DNA of 64,000 nucleotides. Origin: Pontiella agarivorans. Its GTDB lineage: Bacteria; Verrucomicrobiota; Kiritimatiellia; Kiritimatiellales; Pontiellaceae. The DNA lies in NCBI RefSeq assembly GCF_034531395.1, contig NZ_JARVCO010000010.1, forward strand, positions 558,001 to 622,000, read 5' to 3'. The notes below the pieces were generated by a model. It was not told where the DNA came from. It did not search any database and saw only the letters and a program-made list of their open reading frames with translations. Shown piece after piece: positions 48,741 through 60,590 of the stretch (its first letter is position 1; each line of letters starts with the position of its first letter). A program made the translations under genes and the position numbers.

Positions 48741-51509
48741 TCAGGGGAATACGCGGCGGCGGCCGCCTGCCCGGCGCGTCTTGCGCGTTTCTTTAACTTT
48801 TTCCACCGTCTCTTCTACGGCTCCTTCGACGATTTCGCTGTTGCCTTTGGTAATTTTTCCGACGCCGTCTTTTGCCCCGCTGACCATATCCGAAGTCAGA
48901 CTGCCGAGGCCTTTCAGGGTATCGCCGGCAAAACCGGTTGCTCCGCTGACGGCACTGAGCATCTCTTCGTAGAAGGTGTCATAGACCTGCGTTGCGGCTT
49001 CTGCCGGGGTTGCTCCGCCTTTTTCTTTACCGATATCTTTCAGTACCGGCAGGGGCAGGGGAATGGGCAGGGTCGGCAGAGCTGAAAGTTTGGCGTATAC
49101 AATACAGCCGTCGATGGCAATGCGCTCAATAATAACTTTCTGGCCCTGTTCCTCTTCAGCTTCTGCTGTCGGGGATGTGTCTGCCATTTCAGGGCCGGGT
49201 TCTGTATCTTCGGTATATTCCTCCCGATGGAGCACGGCCTGTTCGATATTCTCCTGAAAGGCTTTGATGTTGTCTTTGAGAATCTGACGTTCGTAGCGAA
49301 CGCGCGGGTTGGTCAGCTGAATATCGCGAATCATGAGAATGTCGCTCTGGATGCTGTCCGGATCGAGATCGAGACTGAAGTGCTCGATTTTGACCATATC
49401 CCGCCGCGAAAAATTCGGAGGGTTGGCGATGCGCAGACCGTTGATCTGCAGTTGGCCTTCGAGCGGTTGGAGCAGGAGATCACGAAATGCTACCATGGTG
49501 ACGGGTGCATCGGGATCGATTTCAGCCTCTTCGTCTTCTGACGAGAGCGGATTGAGTTTCCCGATTTGCTCCATGGGGTTGAGTTTTCCGATCTGCTCCA
49601 TGGGATTGAGGCTTTTCAGACTCATGCCGGCGGTTTCCGTGTGGTTGGTGGTTACCGGAAGTTTAAGGTTTACATTCAGGTTGGTGATCGCGAGCCGGTG
49701 AAGGACCACCGGCTGTTCAGCAATCGGAAGCGGTTGCGTCTTTTTTTCAGTGGCCGGTTGTGGCGGTTTTGTTTCCGGTGTTTTGTCTTCGGTTCCGGGC
49801 GGGGTAAAATGTTTAAAGGTGCTCTGGAGGCTGGCGACATTGCCGCTGGTTTCGGTCTGCTCCAGGTCTACCTGCGGAGAATCAATGAATACCTCATTAA
49901 TGACGACCTGGTCTGAATAAAGGGATTCCGGGTCGAGGGTGACGGCAATCTGTGCCAGGTGGAAAAGGTTGCTGGCGGCAAAGTCCGGATGGTTCGGAAC
50001 GGTAATGTTGTTTATTTCGATCCGGCCATCGATGAGCTTGGCCGAAATTTCATCAACACCGGCGATTATTCTTGGTGTATGGGTGGTGAGATTGGTGTCG
50101 GTGGTGTCCAGCAGGTGAGCCGCTATATTATCGACTACAAGGTGCTGCAGTTCGAGCGGCGGGGTTGCTGTTTTATCGGATTTGGCGGTCGTTGGTTTGT
50201 CCGTTTGCGGTTTTTCCGGAGCGGGAGGGAGGGAGGGAATTTGGTACGTCGGAATGCGTTCGATGTAGCCGTTGGCCAGGCGGAGCCATTCGCTGATGGT
50301 ATTGTTTTTTGCGTTCAGCTCGAGGAAGGCATGCGGGCTGGTAACCCGTACATCATTGATTACCGGGGAGGCCGTTTTGTGTGAGCCGGGTTCGAGTTGG
50401 ACGGCAATATTTTCCAGAGAAAACAGGTTGGGCGTTTTCAGGGTTTTCGGATTGGAAAGCCGGAGGTTCTTCATTTCGACTAGGCCTTCTTCCAATGCCA
50501 CGGAAAACCGAGCGACAGACAGTTGTGTATTCAGATCGGGTTCGCTGATGTTGACCGCGTGAAGCTGCACGTTGTCCACGGCCAGCAGATCCAGCGTAAT
50601 ATCCGGCGGCGGAAGGGTGTTGTCGGGAGCAGCATCGGCTTCGGCGAGGGGATTGGTCGTTTCCGAAGCGGGAGCGTTTGTGGGAATTTTTTCTGCAAGA
50701 CAGGCGGCGATTTTCAGGAATTCACCGGCGGTGTCGGTTTCGGGATTATATTCCACGTAGGCCTGTGGGCTGACGACTTGGATTGTTTTGAAGTGGATGT
50801 TGGTGGAATAAATGGATTCGGGGGCCATTTCAACGTGGATGCGGTCGAGTGTGAACAGGTTGGGGGTTTTCAGTCGTCCCGGATTCTGTATATAAATCTG
50901 ATTCAGAACAAAGGTGCCGTTGGTCATGCTGACCGCCAGTGAGTCAAGGCCGGCTCGGATATCAAGTTGGGGATCGCGGGTGTTGGCTAGTTTCATTTGG
51001 ACATCATTGATGGCCAGTGATTCGATGATGACGATTGGGGCCGGTTTGTTCTGTGGCTTTTTTTCTTTTTCCGGTTTTGGTGCCGAGGGATCGATGTTGG
51101 CAAACGCCTGCACATTGCGGATGAATTCCGTAATATTATCGCGCTGAAGATTCTGCTCATACACAAAGTGCGGACTGTTGATCTCTACCTGATGAACCAG
51201 AATTGTGCTGGAAAAAAGCGAGGCCATATCGACTGAAATATTCAGACTGGCCAGTGAGACGGCATTGGATTGTCCGAAAATATCCGGATTCTGAATGTTG
51301 AAATCCGAAAGGGAGATGGTGCCTTTCAGAGGGTTGATGCTCAATTTATCAATGTTCACTTCCGTGCCGAGAGCCTTGGAGCCGATGGTTTGGGCCGTCA
51401 GTTTGATGGTTGGACCCAGCCAGAAAAGAAAGGTGAGTATAATTATGAGCAACAGTGCCGCTGTTGCACAGGCTAGAATTTTCAGAGTTTTTTTTAATTT
51501 CAGTTTCAT
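48741..51509 (-). CDS. AsmA-like (DUF748-type) large membrane-anchored protein
   Basis: This 922-residue protein has one membrane helix at about residues 10-35 and a long periplasmic part with four repeat blocks of the AsmA kind: INKLSINPLKGTISLSDFNIQNP-like and LDRIHVEMAPESIYSTNIHF-like segments recur, as do short FxVxxVQL-type strands. AsmA-like proteins bridge the membranes and are thought to help lipid transfer. Within it a 9-residue unit (NPMEQIGKL) is directly duplicated at 49551-49604. ATG 51509 is chosen before the Lys-rich anchor; earlier in-frame ATG lacks support. Confidence 0.82.
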   Translation of the reverse strand: MKLKLKKTLKILACATAALLLIIILTFLFWLGPTIKLTAQTIGSKALGTEVNIDKLSINPLKGTISLSDFNIQNPDIFGQSNAVSLASLNISVDMASLFSSTILVHQVEINSPHFVYEQNLQRDNITEFIRNVQAFANIDPSAPKPEKEKKPQNKPAPIVIIESLAINDVQMKLANTRDPQLDIRAGLDSLAVSMTNGTFVLNQIYIQNPGRLKTPNLFTLDRIHVEMAPESIYSTNIHFKTIQVVSPQAYVEYNPETDTAGEFLKIAACLAEKIPTNAPASETTNPLAEADAAPDNTLPPPDITLDLLAVDNVQLHAVNISEPDLNTQLSVARFSVALEEGLVEMKNLRLSNPKTLKTPNLFSLENIAVQLEPGSHKTASPVINDVRVTSPHAFLELNAKNNTISEWLRLANGYIERIPTYQIPSLPPAPEKPQTDKPTTAKSDKTATPPLELQHLVVDNIAAHLLDTTDTNLTTHTPRIIAGVDEISAKLIDGRIEINNITVPNHPDFAASNLFHLAQIAVTLDPESLYSDQVVINEVFIDSPQVDLEQTETSGNVASLQSTFKHFTPPGTEDKTPETKPPQPATEKKTQPLPIAEQPVVLHRLAITNLNVNLKLPVTTNHTETAGMSLKSLNPMEQIGKLNPMEQIGKLNPLSSEDEEAEIDPDAPVTMVAFRDLLLQPLEGQLQINGLRIANPPNFSRRDMVKIEHFSLDLDPDSIQSDILMIRDIQLTNPRVRYERQILKDNIKAFQENIEQAVLHREEYTEDTEPGPEMADTSPTAEAEEEQGQKVIIERIAIDGCIVYAKLSALPTLPIPLPLPVLKDIGKEKGGATPAEAATQVYDTFYEEMLSAVSGATGFAGDTLKGLGSLTSDMVSGAKDGVGKITKGNSEIVEGAVEETVEKVKETRKTRRAGGRRRVFP

Positions 51510-51547
51510 GTTTTGTCGCCTCAAAAGATGGTGAAACGCTACAGGGT

Positions 51548-51564
51548 TTTCCAAACCTTGGAAA
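51548..51564. repeat. TTTCCAANNNTTGGAAA palindrome (intergenic copy)
   Basis: A 17-bp palindrome TTTCCAAACCTTGGAAA lies upstream of the AsmA-like gene. Further perfect copies of the 15-bp core are at 1241-1255, 6840-6856, 31316-31332, 39985-40001 and 46365-46381, all inside genes, and an imperfect copy is at 9318-9334. Confidence 0.75.
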
Positions 51565-55537: not shown

Positions 55538-55665
55538 GCAGGCTCTCCAAATGTTTGGGAGTGCAGTGTAGTTAGGCGGGCAGGCGTGTCCAGAATCAAT
55601 TTGACAATAGAGGCGGAGGCGCTAAATTCCGCGTTTTTTGAATCTGTTTGTAAATGGAGAGTGCA

Positions 55666-55947
55666 ATGCCAACATATGATTATGAATGCAAAGAGTGTGG
55701 TCATCATTTTGAGGCTTTTCAAACGATGTCGGCGGATCCGCTGACGAGCTGTCCGAAATGTGAAGGGGTTGTTCAGCGTTTGATTGGGATGGGATCCGGT
55801 GTGCTTTTCAAGGGCTCGGGGTTCTATGAGACCGATTATCGCAGCTCCGGGTATAACAAGGCAAAGGCCGCTGACAAACCTGCGGAATCTGCTCCGAAAA
55901 AGGGTAAAAAGTCCGCTTCCAATAAGAATGCGAAACAGGCACAGTAG
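55666..55947 (+). CDS. FmdB-family zinc-ribbon protein
   Basis: This 93-residue protein has the FmdB zinc ribbon at the start (PTYDYECKECGHHFEAF and SCPKCEG: four Cys) and a Lys/Ala-rich basic tail. The role of FmdB-type proteins is uncertain; they may act as small regulatory or assembly factors. ATG 55666 lies after GGAGAG; the earlier frame start has no site. It is followed by the ABC-class ATPase gene. Confidence 0.88.
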   Translation: MPTYDYECKECGHHFEAFQTMSADPLTSCPKCEGVVQRLIGMGSGVLFKGSGFYETDYRSSGYNKAKAADKPAESAPKKGKKSASNKNAKQAQ

Positions 55948-56013: not shown

Positions 56014-57753
56014 ATGAAGGATAAGAAGGAATTCTACAATCTGTTGGCTGAGCTCGACGGACAGCCGTTCCCGGAGTATCAGAAGCTGATCGGAGATTTC
56101 GATTTCACCCGCTATGTCATTAAGTGCATGAATATGGATCTGACCGAAGAGGCGGGCTTGCGTCCGGTTTTCAGTATCCGTGTTCCGCAGACCATTTCGG
56201 AGATTCCGGAATATCTCTTCGACAGTCCGGTGCGGCGCACTGCGATGGAGGATCTGTTGCTGCGCCGCATGGCTGATCGCATTGCTTCGATTGCGCACTA
56301 TGACCAAAACGGTCTTGCCCGTCGGCATATTCATGTGGCTACGCCCAATCAGAAGATTCTGCCGCGCAATGCTTTGTTGCTGACGCGCGAATATATTGAA
56401 GTCCGTATTGAGATTACGTTGCCGGTGCGGACGATGGTGGTCGATGGTGAGCCGACTGTTTCTATCGACGGTGCCATGGCTCAGCAGATCTTTTATGAAG
56501 ATCTGCCGGAAGTGGTAAGTAATTCGCTGCTCTACTGTAATATTGATATTGCCGAAGCGGACGCTCATGTAAACTGCATGGAGGATGCTGACCGTTTGCG
56601 TCAGTATCTCGGGGCTTCCGGCCAGGTGGCTTTTGTTTCCGAGGGTGCGCTGGTAAGCCGGGAAACTGATGCTGATACGCCTGACTTTTCCCGTCTTGAC
56701 CCGGTTGAGATCGGTGATGAGCTGGCTGAAGAGGTTGAGGTTCCGCATAGCGGAGTGGTACGTGGTCTGGGTATTCCAAATGGCCTGACGCTGATTCTCG
56801 GCGAATCCAACAGTGGTCGCGTGGATTTGATGGATGCGATTGCTCAGGGAATTTACAATCACATTCCCGGCGATGGCCGTGAGCATGTGGTTACGGTAGC
56901 TGATGCGGTGAATATCCGTTCTGAAGTGGGCCGTTCTATTCAGCAGGTGGATATTTCTGCATTTGCCAATCGTCTTTCTGATGGAGGGTTGCCTTCTTCC
57001 TATAGCACAAAGGGGGCGGGCGCATTCACCTCTCAGGCCGCTTCAACGGTTGAGGCACTCGAGGCCGGTGCGCGTGTTCTGTTGTATGATGAGCACAGCT
57101 CTTCATCCACTTTTCTTTCTTCGGACACCCGTGTGGCTTCGCTGATGAATGAATCGTCGCGTAACACGCTGGCCGCCCGGGCGCGGCAGATGGTGGATGA
57201 ACTGGGTATTTCCATGGTTGTGGCCGGCAGCAGTCTGGTTGCAGAATTCATTCCGATCGCCGATAAAATCCTGAAGGTGGAGAATTTTACGGTTACGGAT
57301 ATCACGGAAGAGGCCAAGACGCTCGATATCACGCCGGCGGCGCCGGTGAATGATACTGTAAACTTATCTTCGATGCTCAGTCGTTCTCGTTGGGTTATGC
57401 CGAGCTCCATCGATCCAAGCATCGGCCGCGAGGACCTTGTGATTGAGACGGATGATGTTGATTTTCTGCAGTTCGGCCGTTCTCTGATTGATCTTGATGC
57501 GGTTCGCCAGATTGCGGATGCGGATCAGGCGAGGGCTATCGGCTATGTTCTGTACTATGCGAAGTTGCGCTATATGGATGAAGGGTATCCGTTGCGCGAA
57601 ATACTCGATCTGGTTGACCGGGATCTTTCTAATGAGGGGCTTAATGCTCTGGCGAGGGATGTACGCGGCGATCTCGCCCGTCCGCGGCGTTATGAAGTGG
57701 CTGCGATGCTGAACCGTCTGCCGGCCTTCCGGGTGTCGCACGTTACCGAATAA
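56014..57753 (+). CDS. ABC-class predicted ATPase (PF09818-type) with degenerate Walker A
   Basis: This 579-residue protein matches the predicted ABC-class ATPase group in order: an N-terminal domain, GLTLIxG P-loop region, GIYNHIPGDGREHVVT, RSEVGRSIQQVDISAF and SQAASTVEALEAGARVLL. The Walker B residues are present as Asp359-Glu360 (LLYDEHSS). The Walker A loop reads GESNSGRV (263-270): Lys is replaced by Arg269 and Ser/Thr by Val270. ATP hydrolysis is therefore doubtful. Function is unknown in the whole family. ATG 56014 lies after AAGGAT; the earlier frame start has no site. Confidence 0.85.
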   Translation: MKDKKEFYNLLAELDGQPFPEYQKLIGDFDFTRYVIKCMNMDLTEEAGLRPVFSIRVPQTISEIPEYLFDSPVRRTAMEDLLLRRMADRIASIAHYDQNGLARRHIHVATPNQKILPRNALLLTREYIEVRIEITLPVRTMVVDGEPTVSIDGAMAQQIFYEDLPEVVSNSLLYCNIDIAEADAHVNCMEDADRLRQYLGASGQVAFVSEGALVSRETDADTPDFSRLDPVEIGDELAEEVEVPHSGVVRGLGIPNGLTLILGESNSGRVDLMDAIAQGIYNHIPGDGREHVVTVADAVNIRSEVGRSIQQVDISAFANRLSDGGLPSSYSTKGAGAFTSQAASTVEALEAGARVLLYDEHSSSSTFLSSDTRVASLMNESSRNTLAARARQMVDELGISMVVAGSSLVAEFIPIADKILKVENFTVTDITEEAKTLDITPAAPVNDTVNLSSMLSRSRWVMPSSIDPSIGREDLVIETDDVDFLQFGRSLIDLDAVRQIADADQARAIGYVLYYAKLRYMDEGYPLREILDLVDRDLSNEGLNALARDVRGDLARPRRYEVAAMLNRLPAFRVSHVTE

Positions 57754-57834: not shown

Positions 57835-58290
57835 ATGAAACTTGTTGTTCAGCGGGTAAAGCGGGCTTCCGTTACGGTTGAAGGGGAGAAGATCTCCGAA
57901 ATCGGCCGGGGGTTGCTTGTGCTTTGCGGGGTCGGGCATGATGATACAGAGTGTGATGCCCGTTTTCTGGCCAGAAAAACAGCCAACCTGCGCATTTTCG
58001 AGGATGAGGCCGGAAAGATGAACCGCTCTGTAAAGGATGTTGGCGGCGAAATTCTTTCGGTCAGTCAGTTCACGCTCTATGGCAACTGCGCCAAGGGGAA
58101 TCGTCCGAGTTTTATCGATGCTGCCCGTCCGGAGCCGGGCGAGGCGCTGTTTAATGCATATGTTCAGGCATTGGAAAAAATCGGTTTTTTTCCGAAGACG
58201 GGAAAATTCGGTGCGGATATGAAGGTGGATCTGCTTAACGATGGTCCGGTGACGCTGATTCTGGAATCTTCCGGTCGTGCCCGGGATTAA
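57835..58290 (+). CDS. dtd: D-aminoacyl-tRNA deacylase
   Basis: This 151-residue enzyme removes D-amino acids from tRNA. The start [17 protein letters not shown], the SQFTL loop and the late NDGPVTLIL (usual form NSGPVT) are the DTD marks. The Ser-to-Asp change in that last loop is seen in some family members. The start lies just after a hairpin repeat, and no clear ribosome-binding site is visible. Confidence 0.95.
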
Positions 58291-58360: not shown

Positions 58361-59737
58361 ATGGCAAAACAGAAAACAACCGTTGGAATTATTAATAATG
58401 AAACGCTGGCCTATACCGCCGGCCGCGATGTGGAGCTTGATCATGCGTTGATTACGGTTGACTGCATCGGAACGGCGGCGCATGTGACTATGCTTTCTAA
58501 AATGCCGGTACAGCCGAAGTTGATTACCGAGGATGAACGCAAGCGGGTTATTGAAGGACTCGTTGAGATTATCGGTCAGGCGCAGCGGAATAAATTCAAG
58601 ATTCAACTGGCTGATCAGGATGTGCATCTGGCGGTCGAGCGTACGCTGACTAAAAAGCTGGGGGATCTCGGGAAAAAGATTCATACCTGTCGGAGCCGTA
58701 ATGATCAGGTGGCGGTGGATTTGCGTTTATATGCCAAGGAACAGCTTCTGCAGACGTTGGATGAGGCTGCGGCGCTGGCCGCAGCTCTGGTTTCCTTCGG
58801 TCGGAAAAATAAAATGGTTCCGATGGTTGGAAGAACGCATATGCAGCCGGGAATGCCGTCGAGTGTAGGTCTTTGGGCCACGGCGCATGCGGAGAGTTTA
58901 CTGGATGACTGTGTCGGACTGATTAATGCATATGAATTAAATGATCAGTGTCCGCTGGGCTCGGCCGCAAGTTATGGGGTTCCGCTGCCAATTGATCGTC
59001 AGCTGACCTCTGATCTTCTGGGCTTTGGGCGTCCCACGCATAATGTGCTTTATGCCAATAACGGCCGGGGAAAAATGGAGAATCTGGTTTTGTCGGCCAT
59101 GAGTCAGGTGATGCTGACGCTGTCGCGCCTGTCGCAGGATCTGATGATTTTCACAATGCCGGAGTTTGATTATTTTCAGCTGCCGGCTGAGTTCTGTACC
59201 GGCAGCTCGATTATGCCGCAGAAGCAGAATCCGGATGTCTGTGAGCTGATGCGTGCAAAGGCTTCGCGGGTGAAAGCTGCGGAGCTGGGAGTTTATGATC
59301 TGATCAAAGGTTCGCCGACGGGTTATAATCGGGATCTGCAGGAGGCTAAAGAGCTTTTTATGGAGGGGATTGCTACAACGCGGGCCAGTTTGCGGATTAT
59401 GACTCCGATGATTCAGGGTACGAAGGCAAATAAAAAGAAGCTGATCGCCGGATTTACGCCGGATGTTTTTGCCACGGACCGTGCGTTGGAATTGGTGGGC
59501 GAGGGTATGCCGTTCCGGGATGCGTATCACTATATTAAAGAAAATCTTCATGAGCTGGAAAATATCGATCCGACAGAGGCGATTCTGTTGAAAACACACA
59601 TGGGGGCGCCGCTGGGGCTGGATTGGGAGTATTTTAAGGGTCGTATTGCTGCGGTAAAAGAGACCGTGCGCGAGGAGCGCAAGGCCTTTAATCGTGCCGT
59701 CTCTAAATTGCTGGGCGTGAAATATCCGCTGAAATAA
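58361..59737 (+). CDS. argH: Argininosuccinate lyase
   Basis: This 458-residue enzyme of the fumarase/aspartase superfamily cleaves argininosuccinate to arginine and fumarate. The signature GSSIMPQKQNPD lies at residues 281-292, with HTCRSRNDQVAVDLRLY and GRTHMQPGMPSS earlier. It makes the arginine that SpeA can use. The start follows AAGG, a modest site. The next gene begins after one base. Confidence 0.95.
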   Translation: MAKQKTTVGIINNETLAYTAGRDVELDHALITVDCIGTAAHVTMLSKMPVQPKLITEDERKRVIEGLVEIIGQAQRNKFKIQLADQDVHLAVERTLTKKLGDLGKKIHTCRSRNDQVAVDLRLYAKEQLLQTLDEAAALAAALVSFGRKNKMVPMVGRTHMQPGMPSSVGLWATAHAESLLDDCVGLINAYELNDQCPLGSAASYGVPLPIDRQLTSDLLGFGRPTHNVLYANNGRGKMENLVLSAMSQVMLTLSRLSQDLMIFTMPEFDYFQLPAEFCTGSSIMPQKQNPDVCELMRAKASRVKAAELGVYDLIKGSPTGYNRDLQEAKELFMEGIATTRASLRIMTPMIQGTKANKKKLIAGFTPDVFATDRALELVGEGMPFRDAYHYIKENLHELENIDPTEAILLKTHMGAPLGLDWEYFKGRIAAVKETVREERKAFNRAVSKLLGVKYPLK

Positions 59738-60516: not shown

Positions 60517-60590
60517 TGCCCGATAGTGTAATGGAAGCACATGTGACTTTGACTCATAGGGTCCTGGTTCGAACCCAGGTCGGGCAACCA
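60517..60590 (+). tRNA. tRNA-Gln (anticodon TTG)
   Basis: This 74-base cloverleaf has acceptor TGCCCGA/TCGGGCA, anticodon loop CTTTGAC (anticodon TTG) and encoded CCA. It lies 17 bases before prs, with no terminator between, so the two may be cotranscribed. Confidence 0.95.

Follow-up and report, generated by a model that had tools for sequence, protein, structure and literature searches.

The closest described relatives of the protein reported here are MRB1590 (KRBP72) from Trypanosoma brucei, with the structures 4yix, 4yiy and 4yj1, and the bacterial proteins named 'predicted ATPase of the ABC class' (PF09818), with the structure 5d6a. According to the structural study (PMC4538832), MRB1590 carries the P-loop GFHGKS, binds ADP and AMP-PNP, binds RNA, and turns over ATP at 6 molecules a minute for each dimer. 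The same study describes a dimer held chiefly by the central and C-terminal domains, N-terminal domains that form a basic pore, and an RNA-binding mutant in which Arg199-Arg200 is altered. It also describes an S386E mutant, in which binding of AMP-PNP is abolished but binding of ADP is not, and names Asp411 (chain numbering), which corresponds to the third acidic residue after Walker B, as a Mg ligand. In the bacterial proteins, all 14 copies whose P-loop was read show GGG(F/Y)HGKST.

We analysed a stretch of 64,000 nucleotides from Pontiella agarivorans (class Kiritimatiellia), called the window below, which contains a gene for a 579-amino-acid protein of this family (Table 1). The protein has the domain plan of MRB1590, by Pfam names, and is homologous to it over aa 68-513; its best solved match is the bacterial structure 5d6a (E 2.9e-60, aa 104-570). 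The three domains PF20446, PF09818 and PF21117 all pass the Pfam cut-offs, the same architecture is present in three of three divergent Arg forms (defined below) that were scanned, and the initiator M1 is invariant among relatives. Compared with MRB1590, however, the protein lacks the P-loop Lys, the P-loop Ser and the ABC signature, and it is acidic. We refer to proteins with Arg in place of the P-loop Lys as Arg forms, and to those that keep the Lys as Lys forms.

Table 1. Features of the pseudo-ATPase locus and other observations in the window (window coordinates)
Feature	Position	Strand	Details
DUF748/AsmA-like gene	48741-51554	-	937-aa protein; four DUF748 stretches matched
Tandem repeat within the DUF748/AsmA-like gene	49549-49602		two 27-bp copies
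Promoter-like match 5' of fmdB	55601..55628	+	10/12
FmdB-family zinc ribbon gene	55654..55947	+	TIGR02605; 66 bp upstream of the pseudo-ATPase gene
Pseudo-ATPase gene	56014..57753	+	579 aa; Arg form of the PF09818/MRB1590 family; frame open
N-terminal domain	56038..56535	+	PF20446 (Pfam), aa 9-174; acidic, without an equivalent of MRB1590 Arg199
P-loop domain	56554..57327	+	PF09818 (Pfam), aa 181-438; E 6e-64
Degenerate Walker A	56800..56826	+	GESNSGRVD, aa 263-271; codon of invariant Arg269 at 56818-56820
Lost ABC signature	57016..57036	+	AGAFTSQ, aa 335-341, replacing ASGSTSQ
Walker B	57076..57096	+	VLLYDEH, aa 355-361; D359 and E360 kept, third acidic residue replaced by His361
C-terminal domain	57445..57735	+	PF21117 (Pfam), aa 478-574
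dtd, D-aminoacyl-tRNA deacylase	57835..58290	+	TIGR00256; 81 bp downstream of the pseudo-ATPase gene
argH, argininosuccinate lyase	58361..59737	+	TIGR00838; 70 bp past dtd
tRNA-Gln (ttg)	60517-60590	+	between YjbQ-like and ribose-phosphate diphosphokinase genes

Altered and retained sites of the nucleotide-binding core

The initial annotation of the gene claimed a Lys-to-Arg change in Walker A, and this claim is borne out. GESNSGRVD stands where canonical proteins have GGG(F/Y)HGKST, in phmmer alignments to 5d6a and 4yix R269 and V270 occupy the places of the Walker A Lys and Ser, and Arg269 is found in 80 of 80 full-length orthologues, specified by five different codons (CGC 44, CGG 19, CGT 11, CGA 4, AGG 2). 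These 80 distinct proteins, one per genome and spread over 13 family groups, were pooled from searches of the family, order and class, leaving out duplicate loci, the fragments L034, L035, L063, L115 and L116, and Lys forms. The objection that a shifted alignment might hide a proper Lys elsewhere in the loop fails for the window protein, since its residues 256-280 contain no Lys; across the clade, a Lys occurs somewhere in this stretch in 19 of 80 proteins and never at position 269. The further claim of a Ser/Thr-to-Val change is correct for the window protein (Val270), but does not extend to the clade, in which the residue after Arg269 varies freely (V 32, K 12, I 11, T 7, R 6, Q 5, A 4, N 1, S 1, P 1) and the P-loop Ser/Thr (MRB1590 Ser320 position) is retained in just 8 of 80 proteins.

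Walker B and its surroundings had likewise been described as intact. Column counts for the 80 Arg forms, compared with nine canonical proteins and MRB1590, uphold this for Asp359 (79/80) and Glu360 (80/80), whereas changes are seen at the third acidic residue and in signature, D-loop and switch. The third acidic residue is Asp in three of 80 proteins, and the position of the signature Gly387 is never Gly. The MRB1590 Ser386 position is never Ser (D 42, G 26, T 4, N 2, E 2, A 2, V 1, P 1), the window protein having Gly. The adenine-stacking aromatic (MRB1590 Tyr476) is F or Y in 55 of 80 Arg forms, as against nine of nine canonical proteins; in the window protein it is F425. Other sites are kept: Gly263 in 80 and Gly268 in 79 of the 80 proteins, and the residues of a DGRE stretch in 78, 78, 79 and 74. 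The sole Arg form with a changed glycine before Arg269 (PYERQ) is L111:489-2216 (-). Among positions that are invariant in the canonical proteins (9/9), K269R and M368L are the only ones at which another residue is fixed, at ≥95%, in the Arg clade.

With signature, D-loop and switch lost beside the P-loop, ATP hydrolysis by the Arg form is, judging from the sequences, very unlikely. Accordingly, there is little to recommend an active but unorthodox ATPase that uses Arg in place of the catalytic Lys, even though none of the 80 proteins lacks the Arg or the catalytic Glu: the P-loop Ser/Thr has gone together with those three elements, and conservation has moved away from the ATPase core (see below). 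Descent and architecture fit PF09818/MRB1590, but neither Walker A nor the signature matches that of an ABC ATPase, so on sequence grounds the fitting name for the group is a pseudo-ATPase clade with kinship to PF09818/MRB1590, and not an ABC ATPase.

Loss of hydrolysis could nevertheless leave a nucleotide-binding sensor, in which Arg269 would hold ADP or ATP without hydrolysing it and the bound state would regulate a partner. The conservation of Gly263, Gly268, Arg269, Asp359 and Glu360 favours such a sensor, as do the aromatic kept as F425 and the ADP that MRB1590 S386E still binds (PMC4538832). In addition, according to another study (PMC6254361), proteins with a P-loop Lys-to-Arg change often, though not always, bind ATP without hydrolysis. 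However, that same study reports that in the ABC-class yeast Msh2-Msh6, Arg changes impaired ATP binding at the mutated site. Moreover, few Arg forms keep the P-loop Ser/Thr, the stacker is F or Y in only part of the clade, the switch is lost, and Ser is never found at the very position where S386E abolishes binding of AMP-PNP in MRB1590. A sensor, which the initial annotation also suggested, is the second most likely reading, but a doubtful one.

Distribution, selection and descent

A protein search with the 579-aa protein gave matches in 26 of 29 genomes at the family level, in 39 of 43 at the order level and in 73 of the 193 that were sampled for the class. After removal of G197, which holds a Lys form only, and of G076 and G152, which hold motif-less fragments, a full-length Arg form is present in 70 of the 193 class genomes. 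In the phylum sample, 44 of 387 genomes match, and outside the class only three do (G209, G287 and G404), every copy being a Lys form. On whether the change is shared across the phylum, which the initial annotation had proposed as a check, the answer is thus that it is spread over the class and that the three outside-class genomes with a homologue have Lys only. Confinement of the Arg form to the class is shown for the phylum sample and not bacteria-wide, because beyond the phylum P-loops came from plasmid and phage records only. The plasmid relatives (11 records, 26-31% identical) gave a matched P-loop in seven of nine fetched copies and the phage relatives (three records, 30-41% identical) in two of two, all of them GKST; no P-loop match was obtained in the plasmid/phage copies L203, with a broken frame, and L209. 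The former (L203:4001-5650) is a canonical copy on a Persicobacter plasmid that is annotated in pieces. Two scans of viral contigs gave no relatives, a scan of 84,980 species that detects close relatives only returned 28 related loci, and among 14 named control genomes a PF21117 match was present in Thermus composti only. Among the papers listed by searches of the PMC literature, none was seen to report the Arg clade; the likeliest place for such forms to be described is the ABC classification of Krishnan et al. 2020 (cited in PMC11754742), which may include them.

The gene is dispensable, being found in 70 of 193 class genomes, missing in some genomes of the family and cut in G076. Three of the 29 family genomes have no match, among them G007, which is 92% complete. 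In G076, the gene is reduced to about 73 codons (L198:7226-7444 (+)) behind intact matches to fmdB and to a gene for a zinc-ribbon/membrane protein (zrTM), while fragments in G010, G013 and G152 lie at or near contig ends. Since the G076 contig runs on for 5.6 kb, the truncation there is what a decaying gene or a sequencing artefact would predict. For the clade, however, this reading is refuted, and we give it practically no weight: 80 genomes each contribute a full-length frame, all share the Arg, which five different codons specify, and dN/dS is below 0.1.

Specifically, dN/dS is 0.034-0.094 in 13 of 14 disjoint closest pairs, the 14th giving no dS; these ratios are rough because several dS values exceed 1. 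They point to strong purifying selection on the Arg form. The proposal of a pseudo-ATPase in the initial annotation is well supported by such selection acting on a protein in which P-loop Lys and Ser/Thr, signature, D-loop and switch are jointly lost.

The distribution of identity among the domains also differs from that in canonical proteins. For pairs with an N-domain identity of 0.30-0.45, which are not independent and of which the canonical set is small, mean identities of the N-terminal, ATPase and C-terminal domains are 0.41, 0.45 and 0.50 over 1102 pairs of Arg forms, as against 0.38, 0.57 and 0.27 over 23 pairs of canonical ones. Unlike in canonical forms, PF21117 is thus the domain of highest mean pairwise identity in the Arg clade. 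From this shift, the ATPase core appears to have been relaxed and the C-terminal domain tightened.

We built a maximum-likelihood tree of 32 Arg and 10 Lys forms, with a midpoint root for drawing; six of its rows, five of them Lys forms, have an odd composition. All Arg forms lie on one side of a single branch (support 100/99). The nearest relative, and the only sister found, is L196:3-1331 (-) of the outside-class genome G209, which adjoins the Arg clade with support 100/100. L196 keeps GKSS where the clade has Arg, and also DED, but its signature is already SADGPTSQ. It lies behind fmdB and the zinc-ribbon/membrane gene, in the order seen in most Arg-form loci examined, and the same genome holds a canonical copy, L123. 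Since L196 has the Lys, a decayed signature and the same upstream genes, we propose a single loss of the Lys after decay of the signature; this order, the simplest one, is suggested by one gene, L196, which is incomplete at the 3' end and whose 4.4-kb contig belongs to a fragmented genome, the only one of its class covered here.

Pairs of inactive and active subunits are common among ABC proteins, and the Arg form could therefore be the subunit without activity in a heterodimer, paired with an ABC protein whose catalysis is intact. Candidate partners might be sought among 21 weaker PF09818 matches in the P. agarivorans genome, the next best having E 3.5e-4, and in two further frames that come just over the PF09818 cut-off when summed. 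However, the same genome gives a single match to the whole protein (in a search at E 1e-5) and a single match to PF21117, and a PF09818-family partner in the shape of a Lys form occurs beside the Arg form only in G057, of 70 genomes, where the two are on different contigs. We consider a heterodimer of this kind highly improbable. The idea of a structural partner, the stronger of the two suggestions in the initial annotation, is accordingly better supported for a homodimer than for the partner of an active copy.

The gene neighbourhood

In the window, fmdB, the pseudo-ATPase gene, dtd and argH follow one another on one strand. Promoter-like matches in the region number six, which is within the range for shuffled sequence (mean 4.7, sd 2.2). 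Wide neighbourhoods were taken for 31 of the 80 Arg-form genomes, including that of the window. In 30 of these 31 loci dtd is directly downstream on the same strand, within ≤220 bp; the exception is G006, a 1.2-Mb genome in which the Arg form is followed by argH with no dtd between. A same-strand fmdB is upstream in 27 of the 31 loci and zrTM in 23. In a partly overlapping set of 27 close-relative loci, dtd comes next in 25, and the other two end ≤422 bp past the gene. By comparison, none of fmdB, zrTM, dtd, sec and argH was found beside four Lys-form loci, two of them on short contigs. In G076, dtd was not found within 5.6 kb after the truncated gene, and one deletion may have removed both. 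The dtd product acts in the recycling of D-aminoacyl-tRNA, and the conserved position of the Arg form beside its gene suggests a shared function.

The zrTM product (L153:7768-8484 (-) and relatives) is a zinc-ribbon protein of about 235 aa with a hydrophobic stretch that looks, by eye, like a membrane helix; C7, C10, C21, C24, N111 and G187 are invariant in 12 sequences, and no Pfam match lies above the cut-off. An obligate partnership between zrTM and the Arg form was considered and rejected: 112 of 193 class genomes have at least a partial zrTM match, which is more than hold the Arg form, and in the Arg-form families f1 and f2 the sole zrTM match is one of 57 codons in G012. After dtd, 17 of the 31 Arg-form loci have a gene for a protein of about 430 aa (L153:4153-5460 (-) and relatives) with, by eye, a signal-like N-terminus; it gave no Pfam match at E 0.01. 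A role in defence was likewise set aside, as PADLOC matched none of the five proteins scanned.

Surface charge and a proposed role as a scaffold

Both MRB1590 and the link to dtd prompted us to consider a role in RNA binding. However, the mean net charge of the N-terminal domain is -8.3 (sd 5.0) in Arg forms as against +2.3 in the nine canonical proteins. The same tendency is seen within single genomes: in G057, the Arg form has a whole-protein net charge of -38 and the Lys form of 0, and in G209 the values are -26 for the incomplete L196 and -5 for the canonical copy. In an alignment with insertions at this site, the MRB1590 Arg199 position is Arg in none of the 80 proteins, and the Arg200 position is Arg or Lys in 26. 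Strong acidity and absence of Arg199 weaken the RNA-binding role, and RNA binding of the MRB1590 kind by the Arg form is, on sequence evidence, unlikely.

On balance, we favour the hypothesis that the Arg form is an ATP-independent homodimeric scaffold and a structural homologue of MRB1590-type ABC ATPases, and give it a somewhat better than even chance. The starting point is the loss, in the whole clade, of the residues that hold and hydrolyse ATP, namely Lys and Ser/Thr of the P-loop together with signature, D-loop and switch. The protein would still fold and homodimerise via its central and C-terminal domains, with Arg269, perhaps paired to Asp359/Glu360, steadying the P-loop in its empty state. 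The dimer would then be held in one state, with no ATP-driven opening and closing, and the Arg form would probably act as a structural part rather than a motor. More tentatively, the acidic surface might be a docking platform for proteins and not for RNA, and the scaffold might do its work in connection with a protein encoded next to it, the likeliest gene being dtd.

Several observations speak against this scaffold. A ligand might still occupy the site, given the retained Asp359/Glu360 and DGRE, and F425 preserves the aromatic that stacks on adenine. Lys-to-Arg changes often permit ATP binding, as noted above, and the gene is dispensable. An AlphaFold model, based on 28 sequences (that of the window and 27 relatives), is of low confidence, with a mean pLDDT of 48.1 and a pTM of 0.40. 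A fuller version of the scaffold hypothesis pictures an ABC switch that was converted once, in the ancestor of the class, into a permanently set acidic scaffold, with its empty P-loop held by the invariant Arg paired to the former catalytic acids, and that serves the quality control of translation together with D-aminoacyl-tRNA deacylase; we offer it as a conjecture that is, as a whole, rather improbable.

Loss of ATP use by one subunit is familiar in ABC pairs. Here, a stand-alone ABC protein would have lost it in a clade spread across a class, with one Arg fixed and the rest of the protein under strong selection, which makes the clade a clean natural experiment. The GKSS sister behind the same upstream genes lets an order of loss, first of the signature and then of the lysine, be proposed from sequence, and dtd provides a genomic link for the little-studied bacterial members of the PF09818 family.
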